A stretch of DNA of 50,599 bases, from assembly GCA_017938485.1 (NCBI GenBank), contig JAGBBM010000101.1, forward strand, positions 1-50,599, given 5' to 3'. A model generated the notes under the pieces. The model ran no database searches. It saw nothing but the letters and a program-made list of their open reading frames with translations, and was not told the DNA's origin. The position numbers were made by a program, and so were the translations under genes. How positions within the stretch are numbered: the first letter of the stretch is position 1; each line of letters begins with the position of its first letter. This DNA is from Lachnospiraceae bacterium (lineage in GTDB: Bacteria > Bacillota > Clostridia > Lachnospirales > Lachnospiraceae). Shown in pieces: positions 14,306-47,767 of this stretch.

Positions 14306-16828
14306 TTACTGAGCTAACATATCCTTTGCCATTTGAATTAATTGTTCTGTGGTGTAGATTGGGATTTGATACTTATCTCCATCAGCATCACCTATTATAA
14401 AATAATTATTCTCTGCATCAACCTTTATCAGATCATCAACTCGTGAAACAAGATGATAGTTTTCGTCAAATCCGTATCCATGGATTCCACTTGATATGTA
14501 GGTATATCCTTGATTATCCTTACCAAGATACATAGATATATTATCCTTTACACCATCAACTGTTTCAATTACCTCCAATGTGCTTTTATTGATAACCTCT
14601 AACGTATCATTGTTATATTTTACAAATATTATCTCTTCATTAGGCACAGAAATAACAACATCCACTAATCTATATTTTTCTATACCTAACTCCTTTGCCT
14701 GTTCTACATAATCAGCCTGCGTGTCTATAGTATCAAGAACTAAATTCTGTCCTGTATATTCACTCATATAAGGATTTAAACTTGTGTCATATAGTATCAC
14801 TCTGTTTTCTCTCTGTGGCAATACTGCAAAACCTGCTTCAGTAACTAACACCTTATCTATTTTACTATCCACATTGTAAAGGAAATAATCCTCCAATACA
14901 ATCATAGTATCATATTCACAATTTATGTTACAATACTCTGCTGTGGATGTGATTACAAGGAACATATCTTTATTCTTATATGCGGCTACACCATTTATCT
15001 CGTTTGCAGTTACATATTCACCGGTAGCCTCTCCAGTTTCCATATTTACAGTGTATGCTGACATAGCAGAAACAAGAAGACACTCTGTCGCACCCTCTGC
15101 AAACGGAAACTGTACCACATCTCCGTATACAGCCTCAGAACATTCCCATATAACATTTCCATCTACTGGATTTACCTTGTAAAACATTCCGTAGGAATCG
15201 AATAAATCTTCCAAATTGCAAACAGCAATATAAACCTCACCATTAAAACTACTTATCAAACTTATGCTTCCATATGGAAGTTTGGTTTGAGCATAAGCTT
15301 CACCTGTTTCTAAATTCACAAAATGGAATATACTTTCCTGCGACTCAGAATCAGTAAATGAAGATGTATTTTCTGCATAAACAAATGTATTCTCCCCTAC
15401 AAAACACATATCTCTGGAGCGTAAATATCCATCACTTATTTCATAGCTATATTTCATAGTAAACCCATCTGTTTCATAGATATACACCATATCATTTGTT
15501 ACCAGCGCGAGATATTTACCCGACTCATCTGTTGCAATAGCCGTTGCATATACTATATCTAAATTTTCCCACTTACTCTCACCTGTTGAAATCTGATATG
15601 TGCAGATTTCTCCTTTATATGTTACATATACAAATTTATCATCGTTTAAAAATGCAACATTCTTAAAATCTGTGAGACCACTAACATAATCAGCTACATC
15701 CTCAATAATTCCCTTCTCCTCACCTGTAGTTACATCAGAAATTATAAGTCTACCCTCACCATCAAGTGCAACAATATGCTTTCTGTCCGGTGACAAAACT
15801 ATATCCTCCACTATACCTTCTGTATCAATCTGTGCCATAGCCTTAACGGAGCCACCTGCATTATACACATGAAGAGCTTCAGTCAGAGCATATTTGGCAT
15901 CTGCAGTATAAGGCATAGTAATACCCTCATACTCAGTAAGGGCCATAAGAGCTGTCTCAATAGCTCCATTTCTGTTATCATCATTAAGCAAATCCATAGC
16001 GTCTGCAGCGAGGCTTACCGCTTGATTCTCCGAAAGAACTTCATTTTGTTCCCTTATCTCGTCTGACTGAGCATGTATTTCTTCTGCCTGTGCTAAAATC
16101 TCATCTGCTTGAGCTTCTATCTCTGCGGACTGAGCCTCAATCTTTTCTTTTTGCTTATTTATATGTAAAGCCGCCAATGTGCTGGCAATACCAATTGCCA
16201 AACACACAATTGCAGAAGTAACAGACGCAGTTATGATACGCTTCATCTTACGTTCTCGCTGACGCTGACGAAGGTCATCATATGTAACCTCAAACATAGG
16301 TGCCAAAAGACGAAGCAACTCTGACTTTAAGTTGCGTAAAACTTCCTTTTTGTTCTTTCCTCTTACATCCGCTGCAAGAGGCTCTATCATCTTTTTTGTT
16401 ATCTTTACTGAACCATCTTCATAATACACTGGTTCTTCTACATAAAGAAGCTCCTCTGGAAATGAATCGTGGGGTTCTCCCTCAGCTAGTACAACTAAAA
16501 CCTTTTCTCTTCCATGGTACTGAATAAATGTCTCTATCTCCTTCTTACACCATGCAGATTCTCTAAGTCTAGGCGAACAAACCACTATAAGATATTCTGA
16601 ATGAATAAGCGCTTGCATAATAGGGTCTTCAAGATTGTTGGTAAGTGGCAACTCTTCCTTATCTCTAAACACTCTCTCTATCTTTGTTCTTGACGCTATA
16701 TTTTTCTTTATCAGACTCTTTGGTAGCTTAAATGTTTCCATCTGCTTGTGAAGATTTTCTGCTACAAATTGATCCAAGTCACAATGTCTGTAACTTATAA
16801 AAGCATCATACATATAATTATTATTCAT
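14306..16828 (-). CDS. TIR-domain transmembrane protein with coiled coil and beta-propeller
   Basis: 840 residues. An N-terminal TIR domain (about 5-135) starts with YDAFISYRH and contains SAWCKKEIETF, where Glu97 sits at the place of the catalytic glutamate of NAD-cleaving TIR domains such as SARM1. A basic stretch (RQRQRERKMKR) and one span (about 197-222) follow, then a heptad coiled coil with the repeated pattern EI.AQ..EI.AQ (about 226-268), an alpha-helical linker, and about 540 residues of WD40/PQQ-like beta-propeller strands. By the positive-inside rule the TIR is cytosolic and the propeller outside. ATG at 16828 is preferred to GTG at 16831 because it is seven bases from GGAGG. It begins just after the DHH gene stop, so the two are coupled. 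Confidence 0.9.
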   Translation of the reverse strand: MNNNYMYDAFISYRHCDLDQFVAENLHKQMETFKLPKSLIKKNIASRTKIERVFRDKEELPLTNNLEDPIMQALIHSEYLIVVCSPRLRESAWCKKEIETFIQYHGREKVLVVLAEGEPHDSFPEELLYVEEPVYYEDGSVKITKKMIEPLAADVRGKNKKEVLRNLKSELLRLLAPMFEVTYDDLRQRQRERKMKRIITASVTSAIVCLAIGIASTLAALHINKQKEKIEAQSAEIEAQADEILAQAEEIHAQSDEIREQNEVLSENQAVSLAADAMDLLNDDNRNGAIETALMALTEYEGITMPYTADAKYALTEALHVYNAGGSVKAMAQIDTEGIVEDIVLSPDRKHIVALDGEGRLIISDVTTGEEKGIIEDVADYVSGLTDFKNVAFLNDDKFVYVTYKGEICTYQISTGESKWENLDIVYATAIATDESGKYLALVTNDMVYIYETDGFTMKYSYEISDGYLRSRDMCFVGENTFVYAENTSSFTDSESQESIFHFVNLETGEAYAQTKLPYGSISLISSFNGEVYIAVCNLEDLFDSYGMFYKVNPVDGNVIWECSEAVYGDVVQFPFAEGATECLLVSAMSAYTVNMETGEATGEYVTANEINGVAAYKNKDMFLVITSTAEYCNINCEYDTMIVLEDYFLYNVDSKIDKVLVTEAGFAVLPQRENRVILYDTSLNPYMSEYTGQNLVLDTIDTQADYVEQAKELGIEKYRLVDVVISVPNEEIIFVKYNNDTLEVINKSTLEVIETVDGVKDNISMYLGKDNQGYTYISSGIHGYGFDENYHLVSRVDDLIKVDAENNYFIIGDADGDKYQIPIYTTEQLIQMAKDMLAQ

Positions 16829-16830
16829 CA

Positions 16831-18348
16831 CTATACCTCCATATATGTTTTGCCAAAAATGGCCTTTTCAACTATATATACATCATGATAGTCATCAGTT
16901 CTTACCGCAAGATAATCCCCAGGTTTACCTACCATATATTTGTCTTTATCCCACGCTGTAAATACTTTAACATAACTGTCTATAGGTTTTGCATATATAT
17001 TTACACTACCACTGGATATGCAAGTCTTTGCATAATCTGTAAGCAAAAGATGAGCTCCTGTATCTCTTACCTTAATGGCTGGGATATATGCTGTATCAGT
17101 ATTTGCCTCATAAGAATATGGCTCCTCAGACTTAGTATATGACCTATTAAACTTTTCTAGCCTATTTGGATATACCTCACCCTTTATACCTATGATAACC
17201 ACCAAATCTTCCTCTACAACAATCTCAATATCACCCTCGAGAGTTCTTATGGTAATTGGTGTTCCAACAGGTAATACCTCCCACAAATTAACATAACCGA
17301 CTGGGAGTTTCTTCTTCTGATACATCTTCATATCAGTTATATCCGCCTCATAATCTTTTGCATATATTAACTTATAAGAATCAAAGTACTCATGCATACG
17401 ATTGTTAAAATATGCCTCTGCATGAAGACAATGTTCCATAGAAGAAAAAAGCTTTTTACTTACAAAGCCTCCAGCTTTTTCGTAATGTCCACCACCTGAA
17501 CCTATACCTTCTGTAACATAAGATGCAAGTTCGCTGGCATTAACTTCCTTTACACAGCTTCTTATAGATATCTTATATCCATCCAAAGTTTCATTAAACA
17601 CAAGACAAACGTCTATCTTGTCTACCTGCAACAAAAAATCACTTATAATACCAAGGATATTAGGGTCACATGGATGTGAACGAATTACTGCAAACCTATG
17701 CTCCTCGTTATAAGAATACCTTAGCATGGCCACTCCAGCTATCTCTAATTCCTCCAAAGATATATTGGAGTTACGGAAAAGGGTAATCAGATTATTCTCA
17801 TACTCTACCCCCTCCATCAAATCCTTATCAAGAGGATTGTGTATCTCTGCGAATTGACTTGTATCTGTGTATAAACCATAATAAAGGGCTGTTCCTAAAC
17901 CATTTTCATCTGTCACCTTATATCCAGACTCAAGTAATAGTTTCCAAACTATTGTAGAACAACTACCTACTCCTGGAATAATATGGCTCAACTTTACATC
18001 ATCTATCTCTATCTGATGATGGTCAATAATAGCTACCTCATCTGCCTCAATTCTAGTAACATTACCAGCACCATACTGACAATCTGTTGTGATAAGAAGT
18101 CCTTTGACTCTATTAAAACCTTTCTCCAATGGTTTTACATATTCTACTGGAATATTTAATTTCTCAACCATAAGACGCAAGTTTGACTTTTGAATTATAT
18201 TTCTTCCACTGTATATAAGTCGTACATCCTTGCCTTTATCCTTAAAAAAGCAATATAAACCATAGCCTGATGCAATTGCATCTGCATCAGGATTGTCATG
18301 ACATTGTATGGTTATTGGATTAAATTTCTCTAATTTCTCTAAAATCAT
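16831..18348 (-). CDS. DHH/DHHA1-family phosphoesterase with C-terminal extension
   Basis: 505 residues from the ATG at 18348, which follows GGAGG; an upstream TTG overlaps that site. The DHH domain shows HDNPDADAI (17-25), TTDCQYG (88-94) and the DHH triad Asp109-His110-His111, all metal ligands, and the DHHA1 domain shows GSGGGHYEKAGGF. This is the arrangement of NrnA-type nanoRNases, pAp phosphatases and cyclic-dinucleotide phosphodiesterases. The family is usually about 320 residues; here about 170 extra beta-rich residues ending in a KPGDYLAVRTDD motif form a domain I cannot name. It is co-transcribed with the TIR-propeller gene, which suggests that both handle a nucleotide-derived molecule. 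The exact substrate is not readable. Confidence 0.9.
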   Translation of the reverse strand: MILEKLEKFNPITIQCHDNPDADAIASGYGLYCFFKDKGKDVRLIYSGRNIIQKSNLRLMVEKLNIPVEYVKPLEKGFNRVKGLLITTDCQYGAGNVTRIEADEVAIIDHHQIEIDDVKLSHIIPGVGSCSTIVWKLLLESGYKVTDENGLGTALYYGLYTDTSQFAEIHNPLDKDLMEGVEYENNLITLFRNSNISLEELEIAGVAMLRYSYNEEHRFAVIRSHPCDPNILGIISDFLLQVDKIDVCLVFNETLDGYKISIRSCVKEVNASELASYVTEGIGSGGGHYEKAGGFVSKKLFSSMEHCLHAEAYFNNRMHEYFDSYKLIYAKDYEADITDMKMYQKKKLPVGYVNLWEVLPVGTPITIRTLEGDIEIVVEEDLVVIIGIKGEVYPNRLEKFNRSYTKSEEPYSYEANTDTAYIPAIKVRDTGAHLLLTDYAKTCISSGSVNIYAKPIDSYVKVFTAWDKDKYMVGKPGDYLAVRTDDYHDVYIVEKAIFGKTYMEV

Positions 18349-20383: not shown

Positions 20384-21718
20384 TTATATCAATCTTTTTT
20401 CTATACCAGTTTTTTCGTAATAACAAAGCTTATCCTCATACATTAGTTTTTCAGCAATGGATATAAGCTTGTCTATATCTTTGTTTCCTTCTTCACACCA
20501 GACAGTGCCTATAGCCAATACTACTTCATTTTCTTCCATATTCTTACGAAGGTAGTCTGTTTTTTCTGCCAGCAAATCTTCACTTATGCCAAGACAAAGT
20601 CCAAGGAACTCATCTCCACCTATTCGGAACAGATTATACTCTCCAAATGCATTTTTTAAGCTATCACATGCCTTAAGAATATATCTGTCTCCTGCCTCAT
20701 GACCCTCAGTATCATTTACCTTTTTGAGACCAGTCACATCACAGTATACGACACCTAACGTTTTATTCTTTGGTAGATTATCTATGAATTCATTCATGGC
20801 ATGTCTATTGCCAATCTTAGTAAGTTGGTCTTTGTAACTTAAATCCTTCAGTTGCTTAAGAAGGTTACGTCTTCTCAGAGATGATATGATAAAATGACCC
20901 ATAATCTCAAGCAAATCGGAGCAGTAATTCAAAAATCCGCCCGGTGGATTATCAACGCCGTAAAAACCGATTACTTTTTTTGTATCATACAACGGAACCA
21001 CAACTATAGAATGAATATTTTGCTGCTTCAATATCTCATACTGAAGATAATTTTCATCCTTAATATCTTCTATGTCTCCTATGATTATATTTTCCTGCTT
21101 TTTAAAACTCTCATACCAATTTTCGCAAGCCTCTGGTGGTACATTTTGGAGATTATCTTTCTCCGGAGTTACACCATGAGCAACCCACTCATAGGTGTTA
21201 TCGTCACATCCATTTTCTCTTTTTTCAAATATGTATGTTCTTTCACCATTTAAAGCTTTTCCCAAATACTCCAATATGACATCTATAGTTTTATCAGGAT
21301 TTGGTGCTTGAAGTGCAAGCTTTATACCCTCATTTACCAAAGACTCCATATCCCGATAATTATGTATCATGTCACGTTGTTTTTCTTGGGCAGTCACATC
21401 TAAGGCAATCTCCATTCTGTATCTTCGACCATCTTCTTTAATCATGGTATCTTTTAACATGTAATGTTTCTTAAGTACAGGATTGAAGTACTTCCATTCA
21501 ATAAATTCCCCTTCCTTAAGGCGGCTATTATTACATATTGAACAAGGGGTTTGACAGTTTTGAATCAACTCATAACACATCTTACCCTTTACTTCTTCAA
21601 CAAAGCTATACCCATAATTTTCTAAGGCTTTTTTGTTCATATAGACCACTTCATGGGTATCTATATCAGAAACATAAACCAATTCATTTAGATTATCAAA
21701 GAATTCCCAGATTTTCAT
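20384..21718 (-). CDS. PAS-GAF-GGDEF diguanylate cyclase
   Basis: 444 residues, soluble. A PAS domain (about 5-115) contains a cysteine cluster (Cys48, 55, 59, 62: CYELIQNCQTPCSIC), a GAF domain follows (about 135-285), and the GGDEF domain (about 292-438) has the metal Asp327 in YCDVTGLKKVND and an intact GGDEF at 367-371. It should therefore make cyclic di-GMP from GTP. The usual RxxD inhibition site upstream of GGDEF is absent (FGEY instead), so product feedback at that site is unlikely. The gene starts 19 bases after an HD-GYP phosphodiesterase in the same operon. The cysteine cluster could bind metal or respond to redox; this is inference. Confidence 0.93.
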   Translation of the reverse strand: MKIWEFFDNLNELVYVSDIDTHEVVYMNKKALENYGYSFVEEVKGKMCYELIQNCQTPCSICNNSRLKEGEFIEWKYFNPVLKKHYMLKDTMIKEDGRRYRMEIALDVTAQEKQRDMIHNYRDMESLVNEGIKLALQAPNPDKTIDVILEYLGKALNGERTYIFEKRENGCDDNTYEWVAHGVTPEKDNLQNVPPEACENWYESFKKQENIIIGDIEDIKDENYLQYEILKQQNIHSIVVVPLYDTKKVIGFYGVDNPPGGFLNYCSDLLEIMGHFIISSLRRRNLLKQLKDLSYKDQLTKIGNRHAMNEFIDNLPKNKTLGVVYCDVTGLKKVNDTEGHEAGDRYILKACDSLKNAFGEYNLFRIGGDEFLGLCLGISEDLLAEKTDYLRKNMEENEVVLAIGTVWCEEGNKDIDKLISIAEKLMYEDKLCYYEKTGIEKRLI

Positions 21719-21737: not shown

Positions 21738-22928
21738 TTATTCTAACACCCAGTTTTCAATGTCTCCGTTATCAATTAATTCCTTCAATGCAACAACAAC
21801 TTCAGGATCGAACTGCTTTCCTGCATTTTCATCAAGTTCCTTAAGGATTTTTTCCTGAGGAAGTCGTTTTCTATAACATCTGTCACTATTCATAGCATCA
21901 AATGCATCTGCCACACAAAGAATTCTAGCCACTAAAGATATCTCTTCCCCTTTTAACTTATCTGGATAACCATTTCCATCATATCTTTCGTGATGATGTA
22001 ATGCTCCATCCTGTATACCAGGTATAGCAGTAAACTCTTTCAAGATATTCGCACCAATCTTTGTGTGTGATTCTATAACGGTTCTTTCCTCTTTTGTAAG
22101 CTTGTCCGGTTTCTTTAATATGCTATCTGGCACACTAATCTTGCCACAGTCGTGCATCAAAGCTATATAATAGTAATTTCTTACAATTTCTTTATCCAGT
22201 CCCATATGAGTAGCAATCTTTCTTGTATACTCTGCCACTCTTTCTGAATGTCCGTGAGTATATGGATCCTTAGCATCAATAAAAGATATAAATGTATCCA
22301 TAGTTTGAAGAATTATCTTCTCATCACGTTTTTGTCTTCTCTTGTAACTAATCAAACATATCTGAACCACAATGTAGCTTATCAAAGACACAGCCCAGAT
22401 AACTCTTATTACCTGTAACACCCAGTATGCCGCAACATCCTGAACATTCTTCTCAAAATAACCATATACAGTATATGTATCAAAAATAAGTTTATTGTTA
22501 GCTGTACACACAAATCCAAAAGGTTGGTCCTTACCTGCCTCCACTATGGTATTGTAATCCATAGGTGTGAGAGTTATGGTCTCTCCATCAAACACATACT
22601 CACCATTCCAAAGACTGTCTATACGACCTTCTGCCGGCATGTGCACAATAATCTTCCAATTTTTAAACACGTGCTTTCCAGTATTCAAAATAACTGCATC
22701 ATACTGCGCACCTGTGAGTGCATTCTTTTTTGCATCATAATCTGTCCAGCTCTTGGATACTTCCATAGTTATGTTGATATCTTCATGAGATGACTTTCCA
22801 TCTTCTATATCAATCTTAACTTGAGTATTATTGCTTTTTTCCACAGCTCTCTCTACTTGCCAAAATCCAAACTGTATTAAAATAAAAAGTACAACAAAAA
22901 GAATTGTCACTTTAATGTTCTTTTTCAT
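21738..22928 (-). CDS. HD-GYP c-di-GMP phosphodiesterase with outside CBM2-like domain
   Basis: 396 residues from the ATG at 22928 (GGAG seven bases upstream; the longer frame to 22994 has no good site). One N-terminal span (about 6-24), an extracytoplasmic domain (about 48-155), a second span (about 172-194) and a full HD-GYP domain (about 205-385) with GHSERVAEY, His259-Asp260 in MHDCGK, HHHERYDGNGYP and VADAFDAMNSDR. The outside domain follows the strand pattern of family 2 carbohydrate-binding modules: KSW (Trp61), LNTG...NW (Trp91), SLWNGEYVFDGETITLTP (Trp107) and AGKDQPFGF. Such modules bind cellulose or related glycans. It is first in an operon with a diguanylate cyclase and close to pgaCD, which suggests polysaccharide sensing linked to c-di-GMP breakdown. 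Confidence 0.9.
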   Translation of the reverse strand: MKKNIKVTILFVVLFILIQFGFWQVERAVEKSNNTQVKIDIEDGKSSHEDINITMEVSKSWTDYDAKKNALTGAQYDAVILNTGKHVFKNWKIIVHMPAEGRIDSLWNGEYVFDGETITLTPMDYNTIVEAGKDQPFGFVCTANNKLIFDTYTVYGYFEKNVQDVAAYWVLQVIRVIWAVSLISYIVVQICLISYKRRQKRDEKIILQTMDTFISFIDAKDPYTHGHSERVAEYTRKIATHMGLDKEIVRNYYYIALMHDCGKISVPDSILKKPDKLTKEERTVIESHTKIGANILKEFTAIPGIQDGALHHHERYDGNGYPDKLKGEEISLVARILCVADAFDAMNSDRCYRKRLPQEKILKELDENAGKQFDPEVVVALKELIDNGDIENWVLE

Positions 22929-22953
22929 AATTTCACTCCACTTTACTCTGATA

Positions 22954-22995
22954 AATATATAAAGTATTTTACCATTGTCAAAAAAGTTAGACAAT
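22954..22995 (-). promoter_or_regulatory. Promoter with inverted repeat for the HD-GYP/GGDEF operon
   Basis: TTGACA (22976-22981), 16-base spacer, TATATT (22954-22959) on the minus strand. An ATTGTC / GACAAT inverted repeat (22974-22979 and 22990-22995) overlaps the -35 box and could be a regulator site. Confidence 0.65.
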
Positions 22996-41152: not shown

Positions 41153-43054
41153 TTAGTTCAAGGTACTATGAATAATCTCTTTAAGAGCTAGTGGAAGGAA
41201 TGGTTTAGTAAGGTAATCATCCACACCATATACTGATGCTTTCTCAATTGTTTCAATATTTCTATCTCCTGTCATCAAAACAATTGGCATATCGTATTTT
41301 TCTCGAATACGGGATATAGTTTCAAATCCATCCATCTCCGGCATCATAACGTCCAAAAGAATCATATCCACTTCTTCCTGTGCCAACTTTTCTATGGCTT
41401 CCTTGCCGCTTGTAGCTCCTATAATTTCATACACAGGTAAGTCCTTCAAAATAATAGTTACCATCTTGATATTCATAGGTTCATCATCTACAACTAATAT
41501 CTTCCTTTGAGGGGACTTATTCTCCTTCATAGTATATTCCCTGTCTTCCTCAATCATCTTAAGCATAATATCTGCTATCTCCGGGTCAAACTGAGCTCCC
41601 TTGCCCTTCTCAATCTCATCCTTAATTACATCCTGAGGAAGAGCCTTTCTATAGCTTCTATTACTTGCCATAGCATCATAGGCGTCAGCCACACCAATTA
41701 TCCTTGCGGTTTCTGGGATATTTTCTCCCTTTAGGCCATTAGGATAACCTGTTCCATCATATCTTTCGTGATGGAACTTAGCACCATTTTTAACCTGCAC
41801 ATCATCGAAAATGTCTTTTAAAATGTGATAGCTGGTAACTGGGTGTATCTTAATCTGCTCAAATTCCTCATCCGTAAGTTTTCCAGCCTTGTTAATTACT
41901 TCAAAAGGAATACGAATTTTTCCCACATCATGGAGAAGACCGGCATAGTATATAGTCTCCTGCTCTTTTTCTGACTTGTTCATTCTGCGGGCAATCTCCT
42001 TTGAGTATTCAGCTACTCTAAGGGAATGACCATTTGTATATCTGTCCTTTGCATCTATAGTTCTAACTAGGGCACGAATAATCTTTTTATTCATGTCCTC
42101 AACTCTTTCAATACTTTCTTTTTCTAATTTAATAGACTCATTTGTTTTAACAATAGCTATAGAAAAGAAGATAATAATCAATAAAGATATTATGGCCGAT
42201 ACCATTATATCTCTTCGTAAAATATGTGTAGCATCAGCAAAAAGCTCGCTATCCTTAACAAATAGAATCACTGTCCATGAATCCATAACTGTATCTTTAT
42301 AAACAGTGTAGTTTTCATTATTCACTTCAACTTTATAATTGCTTTCCTGATTTTCACACGCATCATAAAGCAGCAAATACATTTCGTCACTATCTATGTC
42401 ATATTCATTTTCATCGGATAAGCCACTAGTTATAGTATGTTTATTTTCGTCCATTAAGAATCCATATCCCATACCATTAACTGATATATCATCTACTATA
42501 TCCTCTATAACATGCATTTCAATATCCATAGATATAATGCTTTTTCCATCTGAAAGCATCTTGCTTAAAGACATCATAACATTACCGGTCTGAGCATCCA
42601 CATAAGGTGAAACCAAAACAGGTTGCCCATGTGCTTCCACAGCCTCTATATACCAGCTTCTGGTTGCAGGATCATAATCCTCATCAGGAACCCAGCCTGA
42701 ACCATCGATATATACACCATCAAATACGCCATACATACCTGTAAAATTGTCATCAATTTCTTTTACATATTTGTCTGATTCGTATGTCAAAAATGTTTCT
42801 ATATCCTCTGATGATGAATTATTATCCATCATATATTCCACTGTAGACGCGGTTGTTCTAAGAACCTCGACTCTCCTTATAAGATACCCATCAAGCTGTT
42901 CTTTACTCTGTGCCAAACTGCTGGTTCCGAGATGTTCTACATCTTTTTCAAGGGTAGACTTAAACACCATATAATTGTATCCAACCATAACAAATAATGC
43001 CAATATTGTGCACAAAATAAGTATGGTATACCATTTTCTGTTTATTTTTTTCAT
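41153..43054 (-). CDS. dCache - HD-GYP - receiver protein (c-di-GMP phosphodiesterase)
   Basis: 633 residues. First span about 11-30; outside dCache domain (about 40-275) with the family signature RSWYIEAVEAHGQPVLVSPYVDAQTG; second span about 284-302; HD-GYP domain (about 325-500) with NGHSLRVAEY, His375-Asp376 in LLHDVGK, HHERYDGTGYP and GVADAYDAMASNRSYRK; C-terminal receiver domain (about 518-630) with Asp568 in LLDVMMPEMDG. All catalytic and phosphorylation residues are present. It should hydrolyse c-di-GMP, with activity set by an outside ligand and by phosphorylation. It is the last gene of the BMP-kinase operon, 34 bases after the hybrid kinase, whose HPt domain is the obvious phosphate donor. 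Confidence 0.93.
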   Translation of the reverse strand: MKKINRKWYTILILCTILALFVMVGYNYMVFKSTLEKDVEHLGTSSLAQSKEQLDGYLIRRVEVLRTTASTVEYMMDNNSSSEDIETFLTYESDKYVKEIDDNFTGMYGVFDGVYIDGSGWVPDEDYDPATRSWYIEAVEAHGQPVLVSPYVDAQTGNVMMSLSKMLSDGKSIISMDIEMHVIEDIVDDISVNGMGYGFLMDENKHTITSGLSDENEYDIDSDEMYLLLYDACENQESNYKVEVNNENYTVYKDTVMDSWTVILFVKDSELFADATHILRRDIMVSAIISLLIIIFFSIAIVKTNESIKLEKESIERVEDMNKKIIRALVRTIDAKDRYTNGHSLRVAEYSKEIARRMNKSEKEQETIYYAGLLHDVGKIRIPFEVINKAGKLTDEEFEQIKIHPVTSYHILKDIFDDVQVKNGAKFHHERYDGTGYPNGLKGENIPETARIIGVADAYDAMASNRSYRKALPQDVIKDEIEKGKGAQFDPEIADIMLKMIEEDREYTMKENKSPQRKILVVDDEPMNIKMVTIILKDLPVYEIIGATSGKEAIEKLAQEEVDMILLDVMMPEMDGFETISRIREKYDMPIVLMTGDRNIETIEKASVYGVDDYLTKPFLPLALKEIIHSTLN

Positions 43055-43088
43055 ATAAACTCACCTCATTTTACGCTAACACATCTTA

Positions 43089-45590
43089 CTATATAGATTC
43101 CATAATTGTCACAGCCTCCGTCAAAGTCAAATCATATACTCTCATAAGTTCCTCATGATTTTCCTCAATAAAGGACAATGCCCCTTCATCTCCAGCCAAA
43201 AACTCTTTTCCTCTTTTTTCTATATCCGCTGCCAATTTGCTTAAAATGACACCTCCGATATTAAGAGATGTGGACTTTATAGAATGAACATAGGTTACAT
43301 AGTCCTTCCAATTCTTTGCGTTATAGCACTCTTCCACTTGACATTTCTTCTCGGCACCATACTCATAGTATACTTCAAGAAATGACTTATACATTTCCAT
43401 GCTCTGAGCACTATATTTTAATCCAACTTTCTGGTCAATATACTCTTGCTTTAAATCTTTTTTACCCAAAATTTCTTCGCTATTATCCTCTGTATTTGTA
43501 TGTTTAACCTTAGTAAGTTTATGCTCAGGGATATAATGCTGAAGCATTTTTTCCATCTTGCGCGTATCAATTGGCTTGCTTAGGTAATCATCAAAGCCCT
43601 TTGAAAGATACATCTCCTTAACCCCTACTATAGCATTAGCTGTAAGGGCAATGAAAACTGTATCCCTCTTTAGCTCTTTTTCTATAATAGTTTCCAAAGT
43701 TTCAATACCACTCATCCCCGGCATCATATGATCTAGAAGAACTATATCAAAGGTATCGTTAATTATGTGTTCTATACATTCCTCACCGCTAGAGCAAGTG
43801 GTTATCTGCATTTGGGTTGTCTTTAAAAGATTCTTTATAACCACAAGATTCATCTCATGGTCGTCAACAACCAATACCTTTGCATCAGGGGCAACAAATC
43901 TTTCAGTGTACTTAGTATCACCCTCAGCCTCATATTTAACTTGGAAATCTCCTATAGGTGTTACATCTGCCACACCCTGAGGTAAGTTAACAACAAACTC
44001 TGTTCCCTCACCATACTTACTTGATACTTTAATTTCTCCTCCCATATGTTGAAGAAGTCTGTATACTATGGCAAGGCCAAGACCAGTACCCTCAATATTT
44101 CTATTTTCTTCCAAGTCCACTCTCTCAAAGTCCATAAATAACTTATCCAGATTGTCCTCCTTTATGCCTATTCCTGTATCCTTCACCTGAACAGTTAAAT
44201 CTACTTTTTCTCCAGATACGTCTCCACCTACAACAAGAGAAATCTCTCCCTCCTTTGTGTACTTAACTGCATTGTTCAAAAGATTAATAATAATCTGTCG
44301 GACTTTTCCAACATCCCCAAGCAATACTCTTGGTAATTTTTCATCAACCTTAATATTAAAATCAAGGTCTTTCTCCTTGGTCATAGGAGTAATTATATTG
44401 TTCAAATCATTCAACAGACCCCCAAGGGAATATTCGCTATTTTCTATCTCTATTTTTCCAGCCTCTACCTTAGAGAAATCCAAGATTCCATTTATTATGT
44501 CTAAAAGGTTTTCGCTGGCACTCTTTATGTTGCTGGCATAAACACGGATATCCTCATCTTTAGACTCTCTTAAGACCATCTCATTCATACCCATAATGGC
44601 GTGAATAGGGGTTCTGATTTCATGGGACATATTGGCCAAGAATTGGCTCTTGGCTCTGTTGGCATTTTCTGCTTCTTCTTTTGCCTCTCTAAGTTCATCT
44701 CTTTCTTTAGCCTTTTCCGCAGTGATAAACAAATAAGTTCCGCCGATTATAAAAAGGATGAGCAGGAGTCCAAATACCCACAAAACCAAAGTTGTAATAT
44801 ATGTTATACCCTCTGACAAAGCCTTTTCAGGCACAACACCTACAGCATATATGCCATAGGTAGAAACCTCTGAAACAAAAAGGAAATATCTTCCGTTAGA
44901 TGTCTTTACATATGTACTGGCAGCAGTTGATACATTCATCTCCTCTTTGATAGTAGCAAATCCTGCCTTCATCTCATCTGATTCAAGGAACTCCAAGTCA
45001 TACTCATCATCCATAAATGGGATAACAATCTCAAAGTCTTCATCTGCCCAAAGAACCTGACCTTTTCCATTATAACAATCTATTCCGAAGGTATCCACTA
45101 ACACAGACTTATCATACACCTTGTAAAGCACATATTTTACATTTTCTCCTCGATATACCGGTACAGAAAACATCACCCCGCTATCAGAAGAATATGACAC
45201 TGCTTCATTACCACGAAAGGATTCTCTTATTCCTTCATACTTGGTGGAATCAACCTCTGTCCCCAGTATAACCTCTCCGTCCAGAGTAATAACACCCACA
45301 GAAATACCTTCCTGCTCGTAATTTACAGTCTGTAACACTCTTTCTGGGTTGTCAGCATTATTTTCTAATGCACTGGCTATATTGTTAAGCTGAACAAATT
45401 GTATGAGAATAACTTGTTCCACCTGCTCTGATATAAGTCCAGCATGCTCTGTAACCTGATTTTCCATATGGTCTATCAAAAGCTTATTCATTTTCATGCC
45501 AAGAAGACTACCAACAATCAGCATTATGCCAACGAGAGTAGCCACACCAAGCACCGTTCTTAAGTTAATCTTTCTTTCACTAGTCTTCAT
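43089..45590 (-). CDS. Hybrid sensor kinase with receiver and HPt domains
   Basis: 833 residues: span (about 13-34), outside sensory region of about 230 residues (36-262, Cache-like by strand pattern), span (about 265-288), HisKA with His323 in MSHEIRTPIHAI, HATPase with IIINLLNNAVKYT, DTGIGI and GTGLGLAIVYRLL, receiver with Asp620 in IVLLDHMMPGMSG, and HPt with His769 in YVHSIKSTSLNIGG. This forms an internal His-Asp-His phosphorelay and leaves the last step to a separate receiver. The next gene, with a receiver on an HD-GYP enzyme, supplies it. The start overlaps the end of the upstream BMP-type gene by 11 bases. Two co-encoded BMP-type proteins are likely ligand-presenting partners. Confidence 0.93.
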   Translation of the reverse strand: MKTSERKINLRTVLGVATLVGIMLIVGSLLGMKMNKLLIDHMENQVTEHAGLISEQVEQVILIQFVQLNNIASALENNADNPERVLQTVNYEQEGISVGVITLDGEVILGTEVDSTKYEGIRESFRGNEAVSYSSDSGVMFSVPVYRGENVKYVLYKVYDKSVLVDTFGIDCYNGKGQVLWADEDFEIVIPFMDDEYDLEFLESDEMKAGFATIKEEMNVSTAASTYVKTSNGRYFLFVSEVSTYGIYAVGVVPEKALSEGITYITTLVLWVFGLLLILFIIGGTYLFITAEKAKERDELREAKEEAENANRAKSQFLANMSHEIRTPIHAIMGMNEMVLRESKDEDIRVYASNIKSASENLLDIINGILDFSKVEAGKIEIENSEYSLGGLLNDLNNIITPMTKEKDLDFNIKVDEKLPRVLLGDVGKVRQIIINLLNNAVKYTKEGEISLVVGGDVSGEKVDLTVQVKDTGIGIKEDNLDKLFMDFERVDLEENRNIEGTGLGLAIVYRLLQHMGGEIKVSSKYGEGTEFVVNLPQGVADVTPIGDFQVKYEAEGDTKYTERFVAPDAKVLVVDDHEMNLVVIKNLLKTTQMQITTCSSGEECIEHIINDTFDIVLLDHMMPGMSGIETLETIIEKELKRDTVFIALTANAIVGVKEMYLSKGFDDYLSKPIDTRKMEKMLQHYIPEHKLTKVKHTNTEDNSEEILGKKDLKQEYIDQKVGLKYSAQSMEMYKSFLEVYYEYGAEKKCQVEECYNAKNWKDYVTYVHSIKSTSLNIGGVILSKLAADIEKRGKEFLAGDEGALSFIEENHEELMRVYDLTLTEAVTIMESI

Positions 45591-46680
45591 AGAATTCTAC
45601 ACCTTCTACATACCAATCCATATTTCTCATCAGTATATCATCGCTGATACTTTCACCTTCATCACATCTAAGTGTACCCTCTGTATCATATATCACGCCT
45701 GAAAATATACCCTTACCATTAATTATCTCTTCTTTTTTGTTATCAAGTACTGCTATGGTCTCCTGAGAAACAACAGGGGATATATCTGTCAGTCCTATAG
45801 TTTCCTTTTCCAAGCCAAACCAATATGAATTAACTACATCTGACTTACCCTTCTTATAATCAAGTAGCAACTCTTTATAAGTCACATCCCAATAAAACTC
45901 TACTGTAGTCAGATATTTTTCAGAAACGCCCTTAGGAGCCTCATGATAACCTATAGAATATATATTATTGGCCTCTGCTACCTCCACCACATTAGGTTGA
46001 TTCTGGTGGTAGGCAAGCACATCTACATTATACTCGTCTATCAAGGCCTGCGCCAATCTTTTTTCCTCTTCTACATCATCCCAAGAATTACTCCAAGCTA
46101 CCACAACAGTGGCATTAGGATTAACACTCTTTACACCTAAGGTGAAAGCATTTATTCCTCTATTTACTTCGCTATTTGGCATAGCTGCCACATAACCAAT
46201 ATAATCACTTTCTGTTTGCATACCTGCTATAATTCCAGACAGGTATCTTGCCTGATATATTCTTGCAAAATAACAATTTAAGTTATCTCCATAATAGTCA
46301 AAGCACTCTGAATAAAATGTAATGTCTGGATATTCTTTTACCACATCCAAAACTTCCTCAGCATAGCCATAGCTAGACAATATAATTATCTCCACATCTT
46401 CCTTTGCGAGGTCCCGAATAGCCCCCTCACACTGTCCAGAGTATTCTTTTATATCCTCTTTTACTATAAGCTCTACATCAAGCTCCCTGCAGGCATCTTT
46501 TATGCCCTGATAGTGCAAGCCATTCCAACCAGATTCTGCTGTGTTTCCAGACATAACAAAGCCTATTTTAAGTTTCTCTTCTTTCTTTTCCCCTGTAAAT
46601 ACAAACATCCCAATCATAGTAAGTACTATGATAAGCATTACAACCGATAAGGATATTACAAAAAACTTCTTACTCTTCAT
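45580..46680 (-). CDS. Membrane-anchored BMP/PnrA-type ligand-binding protein (second copy)
   Basis: 366 residues: one N-terminal span (about 8-29) without a lipobox cysteine, then a BMP-family periplasmic-binding fold (KIGFVMSGNTAESGWNGLHYQG, DVEIIILSSYGY, YLSGIIAGMQTESDYIGYVAA, AYHQNQPN). BMP/PnrA proteins bind purine nucleosides and related molecules. Here the binding protein is tethered by an uncleaved helix and no ABC ATPase or permease is encoded with it. It shares the run SEVNRGINAFTLGVKSVNP exactly with the preceding paralog. Its stop overlaps the kinase start by 11 bases and its start overlaps the first copy by 11 bases. Role inferred: ligand sensor for the hybrid kinase. Confidence 0.9.
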   Translation of the reverse strand: MKSKKFFVISLSVVMLIIVLTMIGMFVFTGEKKEEKLKIGFVMSGNTAESGWNGLHYQGIKDACRELDVELIVKEDIKEYSGQCEGAIRDLAKEDVEIIILSSYGYAEEVLDVVKEYPDITFYSECFDYYGDNLNCYFARIYQARYLSGIIAGMQTESDYIGYVAAMPNSEVNRGINAFTLGVKSVNPNATVVVAWSNSWDDVEEEKRLAQALIDEYNVDVLAYHQNQPNVVEVAEANNIYSIGYHEAPKGVSEKYLTTVEFYWDVTYKELLLDYKKGKSDVVNSYWFGLEKETIGLTDISPVVSQETIAVLDNKKEEIINGKGIFSGVIYDTEGTLRCDEGESISDDILMRNMDWYVEGVEFYED

Positions 46681-47767
46681 ATATGCTTACACCCTCCACA
46701 TACCAATCAAATGCATTTAACATCGCATTATCAGGCATATTTTCACCTTCACCAATTCTCAAATTTCCATCTGTATCTACAACCGGACCATAAAAAACAT
46801 CAAAGGTGCCCTCGTCCAGCATATCTCTTTTTTCCTCTACAACCTCAGCAATACCATCTTTAACGTTATCTGTAAGAGGAGACAAATTAACTAAACCTGT
46901 TTCTGAACCCTCCCAGTAATTTCCTGAGTGATACTTTCCCTGTAAGTATGTAGTTATCTCTGGTGTGTAAAAAGCCTCCCAGTCCCATACAGCAGCAGTC
47001 AAAAAGCTATTAGGATACAAACTACTGTTATCCATATTGTAACCTATAGACCAAATCCCACTTTCCTCAGCCACATCAAGAGGAGCTACACTGTCACAAT
47101 GCATAGTCAAAATATCAACATTGCACTCCTCAATTAAAATACGAGCGGCCTCTTCATTTGCCTCATAGTCAGTCCAGGAATTACTCCATACCACGTGGAC
47201 AGTTGCGTCAGGATTAACACTCTTTACCCCTAATGTAAATGCATTTATTCCTCTATTTACCTCAGATATAGGAAATGCAGCCACATAACCTATATCATTT
47301 GTTTCAGTCTGCATTCCTGCCACAATGCCACTTAGATATCGCATTTGATACATTCTTCCAAAGTATGTAGTGATATTATCTCCCTCTTCTGTACCTGTTG
47401 CATGCAAGAAAACCACCTCTGGATTTTTTTCTGCAACCTGCACCAGCCATTCACCATAGTTGAAGGAATTACATATAATTATCTCACAGCCCTCATCAAT
47501 CATATTCTGCATTGTATCCATACAGCTTTCATCAAATGGAACATTTTCTTTATATATTATCTTTAGATTAAGCTCCTTTGCAGTAATAGAGATACCCTCG
47601 TAATGAGACTGTCCCCAGCCCTTATCATCAATCTCACCATTATAAATAAAACCAACCTTGGTTGTTTCATCCGTAATGTTGGTATCATTCTTTTTTCCTG
47701 TGATAAAAAATATGCCTACAATTATAATAATCAATATGCTGATTGTTATAATAACTAACTTCTTCAT
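46670..47767 (-). CDS. Membrane-anchored BMP/PnrA-type ligand-binding protein (first copy)
   Basis: 365 residues, first gene of the operon, with AAGGAG before the ATG. One N-terminal span (about 4-23, no lipobox), then a BMP-family binding fold: KVGFIYNGEIDDKGWGQSHYEG, CEIIICNSFNYG, RYLSGIVAGMQTETNDIGYVAAFP and a late GYNMDNSS segment. Binding-site regions differ from the second copy (for example TMHCDSVAP against AYHQNQPN), so the two may bind different ligands or form a heterodimer. The central portion is nearly identical between the copies even at DNA level, which points to a tandem duplication. No separate promoter is clear; the pdxK terminator precedes it. Confidence 0.9.
   Translation of the reverse strand: MKKLVIITISILIIIIVGIFFITGKKNDTNITDETTKVGFIYNGEIDDKGWGQSHYEGISITAKELNLKIIYKENVPFDESCMDTMQNMIDEGCEIIICNSFNYGEWLVQVAEKNPEVVFLHATGTEEGDNITTYFGRMYQMRYLSGIVAGMQTETNDIGYVAAFPISEVNRGINAFTLGVKSVNPDATVHVVWSNSWTDYEANEEAARILIEECNVDILTMHCDSVAPLDVAEESGIWSIGYNMDNSSLYPNSFLTAAVWDWEAFYTPEITTYLQGKYHSGNYWEGSETGLVNLSPLTDNVKDGIAEVVEEKRDMLDEGTFDVFYGPVVDTDGNLRIGEGENMPDNAMLNAFDWYVEGVSIYEE

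Follow-up and report, generated by a model that had tools for sequence, protein, structure and literature searches.

Why are two Bmp-family binding proteins encoded directly ahead of a hybrid histidine kinase and an HD-GYP protein, and do they serve transport or signalling? The question is raised by a locus on contig JAGBBM010000101.1 (positions 1–50,599, forward strand) of the Lachnospiraceae bacterium assembly GCA_017938485.1; this whole stretch of 50,599 nt is called the window below. We lean, by a modest margin, towards an operon that senses extracellular purine bases and in which a hybrid-kinase relay would set the c-di-GMP level via the HD-GYP protein.

The locus

According to the ORF listing of the window, four genes lie on the minus strand in the order BMP1-BMP2-hybrid kinase-HD-GYP/receiver, at the coordinates given in an earlier note on this DNA. 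The BMP1/BMP2 (46670–46680) and BMP2/kinase (45580–45590) junctions are 11-base overlaps, and a gap of 34 bases separates the kinase and HD-GYP genes. The features are as follows.

46670–47767, minus strand: BMP1, Bmp/PnrA-family binding protein with N-terminal membrane anchor (365 aa; Pfam Bmp 9.3e-56)
47261–47263, minus strand: BMP1 putative pocket Glu169, equivalent to AtzT Glu165 (Glu in 71/71; the BMP2 equivalent Glu171, 71/71)
47093–47101, minus strand: BMP1 putative base-reading His223 and Asp225, by alignment to AtzT Asn218/Asn220 and 3s99 His/Asp
45580–46680, minus strand: BMP2, second Bmp-family binding protein with N-terminal membrane anchor (366 aa; Pfam Bmp 1.7e-44)
46000–46008, minus strand: BMP2 putative base-reading His225 and Asn227 (His 71/71, Asn 71/71)
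43089–45590, minus strand: hybrid histidine kinase, TM helix-extracellular sensor-TM helix-HisKA-HATPase-receiver-HPt (833 aa; Pfam HisKA, HATPase_c and receiver)
44622–44624, minus strand: kinase phospho-acceptor His323 (H in 65/65 kinases)
43731–43733, minus strand: kinase receiver phospho-acceptor Asp620 (D in 65/65 kinases)
43284–43286, minus strand: HPt phospho-acceptor His769 (H in 65/65 kinases)
41153–43054, minus strand: HD-GYP phosphodiesterase-type output protein, membrane sensor (weak dCache)-HD-GYP-C-terminal receiver (633 aa)
41351–41353, minus strand: HD-GYP protein receiver Asp568, proposed end of the relay (residue read from the sequence)

A scan for terminators and promoters did not reveal where the operon clearly begins or ends. 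When the window and four related loci were searched against Rfam, the window had no match; the only matches, a T-box and a 6S RNA, were in locus L063.

The kinase and the HD-GYP protein

His323, Asp620, His769 and Asp568 are the residues that the earlier note had named for the relay, and the first three are identical in all 65 full-length kinases, the window's included. The HPt domain of the window kinase has no Pfam match, and we assigned it by alignment to four related kinases that do match; on this point the evidence is weaker than the note had put it. Similarly, its dCache-HD-GYP-receiver description stands for HD-GYP (HD_5, 2.3e-37) and the C-terminal receiver (Response_reg, 1.8e-27), and dCache_1 falls short of the Pfam cut-off (41.9 against 45 bits). 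The conserved residues support a kinase that keeps a complete His-Asp-His relay. In the more distant L041 kinase the HPt His is absent, judged by eye, and a separate REC-HPt protein is encoded nearby. The translated HD-GYP protein carries both catalytic motifs (HDVGK at residue 375, and HHERYDGTGYP), which a strict pattern finds together in 27/35 HD-GYP proteins of related loci.

The modelled sensor of the kinase (mean pLDDT 85.5) consists of a long helix, two alpha/beta stretches and a final helix. It has no Pfam match, and its best PDB sequence match is no better than E 0.12. Profile comparison of the two sensors, A4 against A6, gave an uninformative probability of 8%. The kinase core also matches the NCBIfam models TorS and LuxQ, with scores under their cut-offs. 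BMP distances correlate with sensor distances beyond the kinase-core distance (partial r 0.61 and 0.64; receiver 0.04, HPt 0.48–0.54), and since the HPt domain correlates too, this correlation alone is no proof of contact.

The ligand pocket of the BMP proteins

BMP1 and BMP2 match Pfam Bmp (PF02608) with 189.4 and 152.5 bits against a cut-off of 24.1. By sequence we count them as members of the Bmp family, and we do not class them as transporter components. BMP2 is an old paralogue of BMP1 and forms a separate group in a tree of 163 BMPs. In the PDB, the BMP1 orthologue profile matches 3s99 (1.8e-72) and AtzT 6pi5 (1.9e-69), and BMP2 matches 3s99 (1.5e-62). The closest solved relatives of both proteins are the base-binding AtzT and 3s99, and the match to nucleoside-binding PnrA is much weaker. 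Because of this, a purine base is a likelier ligand than the nucleoside suggested earlier.

The characteristic residues of the AtzT/3s99 subgroup, assigned by alignment alone, are present in both proteins (BMP1/BMP2: W51/W52, W198/W200, S101/S103, E169/E171, H223-D225 and H225-N227). The second pocket Trp, like the Glu and the His, occurs in 71/71 BMP1 and 71/71 BMP2 proteins. The remaining base-reading residue is nearly fixed, as Asp in BMP1 (66/71, with Asn in 5/71) and as Asn in BMP2. To judge from these residues, both BMPs retain the base-binding pocket of purine-binding AtzT/3s99. A bolder and rather doubtful reading is that BMP1 and BMP2 recognise two different purines, with Asp as in the adenine-modelled 3s99 and Asn as in guanine-binding AtzT. 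The pair might then report purine balance to one kinase with an exchangeable output sign; with similar caution, this balance could be, for example, that of adenine against guanine/xanthine from lysing cells or digestion.

Transport or signalling

The N-termini of BMP1 and BMP2 have a single hydrophobic stretch and, judged by eye, no lipobox. A lipobox was found in 1/71 BMP1 and 0/71 BMP2 proteins, being absent in 141/142 including those of the window, and it is present in 8/8 transporter-type BMPs of the family. In the DNA available, BMP-type permeases were found at 0/80 related loci (the best 80 of 223). Permease pairing elsewhere, which the earlier note named as a refutation of its reading, does occur in BMPs outside the family at 43–48% identity (10/11 precede an ATPase and two permeases), but not at the 80 closest loci. 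The draft genome that contains the window encodes a single PF02653 permease, next to a Peripla_BP_4 protein and an ABC ATPase; two such permeases accompany the BMP transporters that we checked. We considered a transport function and did not adopt it, matching permeases not being found at the 80 loci or in the window's own draft genome. These results support the view that the BMPs are signalling rather than transport proteins.

Ten neighbours of the transporter relatives were scanned, a non-random sample chosen by eye for sizes hinting at salvage genes. Four are xanthine phosphoribosyltransferases (L046, L184, L185, L190); three, all in L181, are a guanine deaminase, a xanthine permease and a xanthine-dehydrogenase-like protein (below cut-off); two have no family match and one is a chemotaxis-type protein.

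Conserved core and variable output

Of the related loci analysed (the best 80 of 223), 79 were scored; 74 of these have a kinase with a homologous sensor directly behind the BMP gene(s), and the remaining 5 run out at a contig end. Locus L103 was excluded from scoring because the ORF picker took a frame overlapping the BMP gene in its stead; the kinase of this locus is at its usual place. BMP-BMP-kinase junctions overlap in 65/65 loci having all three genes, with overlap lengths that are upper bounds (longest-ORF starts). The four genes had been seen as one unit; what is conserved is BMP1-BMP2-kinase, and the output varies. This core recurs across many related genomes and is more than chance. 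A relative of the same genus (G180) is without the BMP-kinase system.

The output may be an HD-GYP protein, the opposing GGDEF enzyme, both, or a lone or double receiver. Sufficient flanking DNA was available for 54 of the 80 loci and for 39 of 44 control kinases, the remainder being left out. A c-di-GMP enzyme is fused or within two genes at 36/54 loci and missing there at 18/54. Among the BMP-free hybrid kinases, which were hand-picked and non-random (39 from one list plus five of six other kinases) and of which none lies in a stretch carrying a BMP gene, the count is 13/39. Over two genes on each side the association is about twofold that of the controls, with related rows in both samples; as the next gene downstream or fused, a c-di-GMP enzyme is found at 26/54 loci against 4/39. 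Grouping the 54 loci at 80% BMP1 identity gives 37 groups, 27 of which include one or more members with a c-di-GMP gene. Since BMP-free kinases have c-di-GMP neighbours too, the link is enriched and not unique. Our results support c-di-GMP enzymes with receivers as frequent partners of the BMP-kinase core. Given the 18 loci without such an enzyme, the kinase can serve other targets, and together with the varied outputs this means that the description of the phosphorelay as self-contained fits the window and is not general.

The HD-GYP-receiver gene stays linked when its place shifts (in L064 and L068 it lies upstream, in L055 and other loci downstream), and in L092 kinase and HD-GYP share one 1842-aa reading frame. 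Only a lone or double receiver stands beside the kinase in L036, L047, L084 and L101. By eye, receiver proteins of 261–293 aa in L084, L101, L105, L118 and L120 seem to combine a degenerate and an intact receiver. No DNA-binding domain was found among the kinase-adjoining receiver proteins scanned with Pfam; for most neighbours the label came solely from resemblance to a small set of reference domains, so DNA-binding outputs could be missed.

Proposed mechanism

Most likely, the locus encodes a purine-base sensor that arose by co-option of an ABC binding protein and is placed on a relay like RpfC/RpfG or Hk1/Rrp1. BMP1 and BMP2 would be tethered at the external face of the membrane by their N-terminal helix and close around a purine base. 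Open or closed, they would touch the sensor that the hybrid kinase exposes outside the cell, in the way that LuxP touches LuxQ, and this contact would shift the kinase/phosphatase balance. Within the kinase, phosphate would pass from His323 via Asp620 to His769; from there it would reach Asp568 of the HD-GYP protein and switch c-di-GMP hydrolysis up or down. A second input probably comes from the HD-GYP protein's own membrane sensor. Related bacteria retain BMP1-BMP2-kinase and join it to different outputs, often HD-GYP or GGDEF.

Alternative explanations

It is possible, if unlikely, that BMP-kinase sensing is real and the HD-GYP protein a mere neighbour, the kinase signalling to another receiver. 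The c-di-GMP genes would then be near because they are common beside hybrid kinases of the family, as in 13/39 BMP-free kinases; moreover, 18/54 relatives have none within two genes, and at four loci nothing but a lone or double receiver stands beside the kinase. The excess in the next-downstream or fused position, the linkage kept in L064 and L068 and the fused frame of L092 argue against this.

Other explanations concern the binding proteins themselves. That the BMPs are ligand-free accessory subunits, the signal being bound by the kinase sensor or by the dCache in the HD-GYP protein, seems quite unlikely to us. The solved Med relative 2hqb, a Bmp-family protein of the type on which KinD depends, is without the pocket Ser, Glu and His, and the kinase possesses its own extracellular domain; in both BMPs, unlike in 2hqb, the pocket residues are nearly invariant across deep divergence. 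We regard as very improbable that they are orphan transport proteins feeding a distant permease and merely co-transcribed with the kinase. They come from a transport protein family with permease-adjoining relatives at 43–48% identity, and since the completeness of the window's own genome is 87.6%, the assembly might lack a permease pair. However, its single PF02653 permease stands beside a different kind of binding protein, and lipobox and BMP-type permeases are lacking as described. Vitamin B6 as the ligand is hardly credible, and we rejected it. It was hinted at by the genes just upstream, for a phosphomethylpyrimidine/PfkB-type (PdxK-type) kinase and a MocR-type GntR-aminotransferase regulator, and by ABC_BMP_B6 as the sole NCBIfam match at E 0.001. 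However, the ABC_BMP_B6 scores (58 and 71 bits) are far below the cut-off of 400, and the linkage is not conserved, the PfkB-type kinase gene recurring in 1/80 loci (in L055, a near sister, at a distance of about 8 kb).

Relation to known systems

In LuxP-LuxQ and TorT-TorS a binding protein gates a hybrid kinase, with output via transcription. The gene coupling is alike here (74/79 loci, with 5 cut off by contig ends), but LuxP and TorT differ in binding-protein family and ligand. In the literature we did not find this combination of components described, and each part resembles something known. Further functional precedents for each half are RpfC-RpfG, Hk1-Rrp1, NspS-MbaA and Med-KinD. MbaA itself is an enzyme, with no kinase or phosphorelay. 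Med is a Bmp-family protein, which fits PDB 2hqb ('transcriptional activator of comK gene') as the third-best PDB match of the BMP1 orthologue profile.

According to the relevant part of PMC3749722, Xanthomonas RpfC is a hybrid kinase with a receiver and C-terminal HPt, thought to phosphorylate the receiver-HD-GYP protein RpfG and lower c-di-GMP. The window system is alike in its HisKA-HATPase-receiver-HPt kinase with intact phospho-acceptors (65/65) and in a receiver-linked HD-GYP protein with catalytic motif in the same operon. RpfC senses a fatty acid by its own input domain, without a binding protein, whereas BMPs are present here; unlike in RpfG, the receiver of the window HD-GYP protein is C-terminal, and the protein has its own membrane sensor. 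The system would work like RpfC-RpfG, and with the receiver-first order absent we do not class it as a member. Hk1 of Borrelia burgdorferi, as outlined in PMC4013479, is a hybrid kinase with binding-protein-like SBP_3 sensor domains, receiver and HPt that adjoins receiver-GGDEF Rrp1, the transfer being inferred in that review. Its binding domains are of another family and lie within the kinase, whereas the BMPs are separate proteins; it drives synthesis, a feature in common with the GGDEF variants of the BMP-kinase system. In Vibrio cholerae, NspS binds polyamine, in contrast to the purine base proposed here, and MbaA makes or degrades c-di-GMP (extracts of PMC8967002, PMC5646818). In Bacillus subtilis the lipoprotein Med is required by the dCache histidine kinase KinD (Banse 2011, cited in PMC11210211), which acts on Spo0A and for which the kinase table of PMC11210211 gives no receiver. 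Unlike Med, which is a lipoprotein, the window BMPs have no lipobox, and unlike the Med relative 2hqb they do have the pocket residues. AtzT and 3s99, with pocket residues largely common to the window BMPs, are thought to serve transport, and the source sections at hand mention no kinase partner. Extracellular purine sensing feeds c-di-GMP turnover also through dCache_1PU sensors (PMC11245519, relevant section); there the purine is bound by a dCache inside the receptor, as opposed to separate BMP proteins.

Significance

If the proposed reading is true, the Bmp family would be added to such systems and the path from purine transport protein to sensor would become visible: lipobox and permeases lost, a pair of old paralogues, and a kinase coupled to them. 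Bacteria of this group inhabit animal guts, where purines should be plentiful. If the more tentative two-purine reading also holds, the locus would be a purine comparator with an output that is c-di-GMP breakdown in some lineages and synthesis in others.

Conservation of the operon

The four minus-strand genes described in the earlier note are present in the window, which comes from a 2.43-Mb draft genome with a completeness of 87.6%:

46670-47767 (-), BMP1, Bmp/PnrA-family binding protein
45580-46680 (-), BMP2, Bmp/PnrA-family binding protein
43089-45590 (-), hybrid kinase of 833 aa
41153-43054 (-), HD-GYP/receiver protein of 633 aa

Both the BMP1-BMP2 and the BMP2-kinase junctions are 11-base overlaps, and a spacing of 34 bases separates the kinase from the HD-GYP gene. 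In a 200-genome sample of Lachnospiraceae, BMP1 was found at at least 49% identity in nine genomes besides that of the window. Eight of them keep the order BMP1-BMP2-kinase; in the ninth, G135, two BMP-kinase loci each have a single BMP. The system is absent from G180, a relative of the same genus. Genome G168 has a BMP-kinase-receiver locus, preceded at the contig end by a partial SBP_bac_3 protein. A strict cut-off, which distant members would escape, was used to search 295 genomes of the order and gave 13 matches. Two are the window's genome and G094; the other 11 (43-48% identity) are of a different kind.

A scan of named genomes found 223 relatives, and the best 80 of the 223 loci were retained; about 58 carry a Lachnospiraceae title and many were sourced from the gut of goat, sheep, deer, buffalo or rabbit. 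Two BMP genes are present in 71 of 79 scored loci and one in eight, including L115, which stops at a contig edge. A kinase with a homologous sensor follows the BMP gene(s) in 74/79, the remaining five loci running into a contig edge. What is conserved is the BMP-kinase core rather than the set of four genes; the output gene varies between loci.

In a tree of 163 BMP proteins, made by a quick method, all 72 BMP2 lie on one side of a weakly supported branch (57) with two distant single BMPs beside them. The 72 BMP1 and nine of 11 single BMPs share one side of a well-supported branch, and eight transporter-linked BMPs form a third group. Judged by their sequences, BMP1 and BMP2 are two old paralogues. 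Six single-BMP loci have probably lost BMP2, because they nest with BMP1 of the two-BMP locus L120.

A probable path from transporter to sensor

All eight transporter-type BMPs have a lipobox, as against 1/71 BMP1 and 0/71 BMP2. An ATPase and two permeases follow the BMP gene in 10 of 11 relatives from outside Lachnospiraceae; at two loci, L046 and L181, both permeases are PF02653. No similar permease was found within as much as 10 kb on either side of the 80 loci, the stretch covered being shorter at contig ends. One PF02653 permease was found in the window's own genome, adjoining a Peripla_BP_4 protein and an ABC ATPase.

Among solved structures, 3s99 and AtzT are the best relatives of both BMP1 and BMP2, followed by the Med relative 2hqb; PnrA (2fqw) is far weaker. 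AtzT is described as contacting guanine through Ser97, Glu165, Asn218, Asn220 and the Phe98 backbone, with a Tyr45/Trp194 sandwich, and the reported KD is about 110 nM with guanine as ligand and 2.5 uM with adenine; adenine was modelled in 3s99. Mapped by alignment, the pocket Glu, second Trp and His, as well as the first aromatic residue, are present in 71/71 BMP1 and 71/71 BMP2, and the pocket Ser in 69/71 and 71/71. The last base-reading position is Asp (66/71) or Asn (5/71) in BMP1 and Asn in all 71 BMP2; in the window's proteins it is Asp225 and Asn227, respectively. The same pocket, with Tyr as the first aromatic, occurs in the eight transporter-type BMPs of the family, while 2hqb is without the Ser, Glu and His. 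In a hand-picked sample of ten neighbour genes of transporter relatives, four were xanthine phosphoribosyltransferases and three, all at L181, were a guanine deaminase, a xanthine permease and a protein resembling xanthine dehydrogenase. Of the remaining three, two had no match and the last matched a chemotaxis-type protein under its cut-off. By homology, a purine base is the most likely ligand of BMP1 and BMP2, because of the closest solved relatives, the conserved pocket and the purine genes near transporter relatives.

Phosphorelay and contact with the kinase

The relay residues named previously (His323, Asp620 and His769 of the kinase, Asp568 of the HD-GYP protein) are at the right positions. 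His323, Asp620, His769 and also Lys772 are invariant in 65/65 full kinases, including that of the window. At the distant locus L041 the HPt histidine is, by eye, missing; a REC-HPt protein is encoded separately close by.

The window's HD-GYP protein has both HDVGK and HHERYDGTGYP. Under a strict pattern, both motifs are found in 27/35 HD-GYP proteins of the 80 loci. GGDEF or AGDEF occurs in 20/22 GGDEF-domain proteins of these loci. In RpfG, the unphosphorylated receiver is thought to restrain the enzyme (PMC3749722). By analogy, phosphorylation of the HD-GYP receiver would start hydrolysis, and the sign could differ here.

In the HD-GYP protein (41153-43054, minus strand), the membrane sensor retains R-x-W-Y and a later Asp, a pattern known from amino-acid dCache domains; by eye, it has no Arg matching that of the purine dCache motif. 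Several close relatives (loci L056, L058, L060 and L062) lack this sensor and retain the HD-GYP-receiver part.

The model of the kinase sensor (mean pLDDT 85.5) starts with a long helix, continues with two alpha/beta stretches and ends in a further helix; by its look, the sensor may be of the double Cache or PAS type. Over 60 loci, with the kinase core allowed for, sensor distances showed partial correlations of 0.61 and 0.64 with BMP1 and BMP2 distances. The BMP distances gave 0.04 with the receiver and 0.48 and 0.54 with the HPt. Because HPt distances correlate too, this signal is only suggestive of BMP contact with the sensor.

Precedents and other neighbourhoods

Each half of the system has precedent. 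For the relay there are RpfC-RpfG and Hk1-Rrp1, and for the separate binding protein NspS-MbaA, Med-KinD and LuxP-LuxQ. Among the open-access papers searched, none was found that by title and abstract links a histidine kinase with both a BMP protein and c-di-GMP, and the combination appears new.

At L182:5138-9705 (genome G218, from a different family of the same order), a lipobox Bmp gene directly precedes genes for a 4HB-HAMP-SpoIIE phosphatase, DUF6272, SiaC and a GGDEF protein, and no permease was found near it. By its gene content this is a second, different coupling of BMP to a c-di-GMP module, resembling SiaABCD. Close relatives of this phosphatase were found in one genome out of 16 from that family, G218 itself. 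At L153:3734-8935 (G004), an SBP_bac_1 gene (lipobox by eye) is directly followed by a hybrid kinase gene and one for a REC-HD-GYP protein. Since another binding-protein family is paired there with such genes, sets of binding protein, kinase and c-di-GMP gene may serve several ligands. At L044:704-3622 (G094), a BMP lipoprotein gene adjoins a chemotaxis-receptor-type gene (match under the curated cut-off), so BMP proteins may also feed chemotaxis.

In the window's own genome, L179:4564-6495 (contig C103) encodes a 643-aa protein whose second half holds a Bmp domain and which, by eye, has no signal peptide; it adjoins a gene reading like a phosphoesterase. Many genomes of the family contain frames about 640-710 aa long with BMP matches. 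Within the window, an HD-GYP protein (21738-22994, minus strand), whose N-terminal half carries a CBM_2 domain of the cellulose-binding type, adjoins a PAS-GAF-GGDEF protein (20384-21718), possibly a polysaccharide-sensing c-di-GMP pair. An 841-aa protein (14306-16831, minus strand) has a TIR-type domain at its N-terminus, and its beta-propeller match lies far under cut-off.

Output of the BMP-kinase system

Output genes were counted in 54 loci readable on both sides, as fusions or among two same-strand genes each way. An HD-GYP, GGDEF or EAL gene was found in 36/54: HD-GYP only in 19, GGDEF only in 10, both in separate proteins in three, both in one protein in two, EAL with HD-GYP in one, and a fusion to the kinase in one. 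L123 is an example of a GGDEF variant. After grouping at 80% BMP1 identity, 27/37 groups have a c-di-GMP gene. Other kinase neighbours are lone receivers (L036, L047), double receivers (L084, L101), HisKA-receiver and REC-HPt proteins (L041) or, at some loci, unrelated genes. The output of the BMP-kinase system is exchangeable.

The controls were BMP-free hybrid kinases, taken from the window's genome and eight relatives, and 13/39 had such a gene within two genes or fused (Fisher's test against the 36/54, p = 0.0018, a rough guide only, as the rows are related). The c-di-GMP enzyme is the next downstream gene or the kinase itself in 26/54 loci, compared with 4/39 controls. Thus, c-di-GMP output looks like a general habit of the hybrid kinases of these bacteria that is stronger in the BMP-kinase system.
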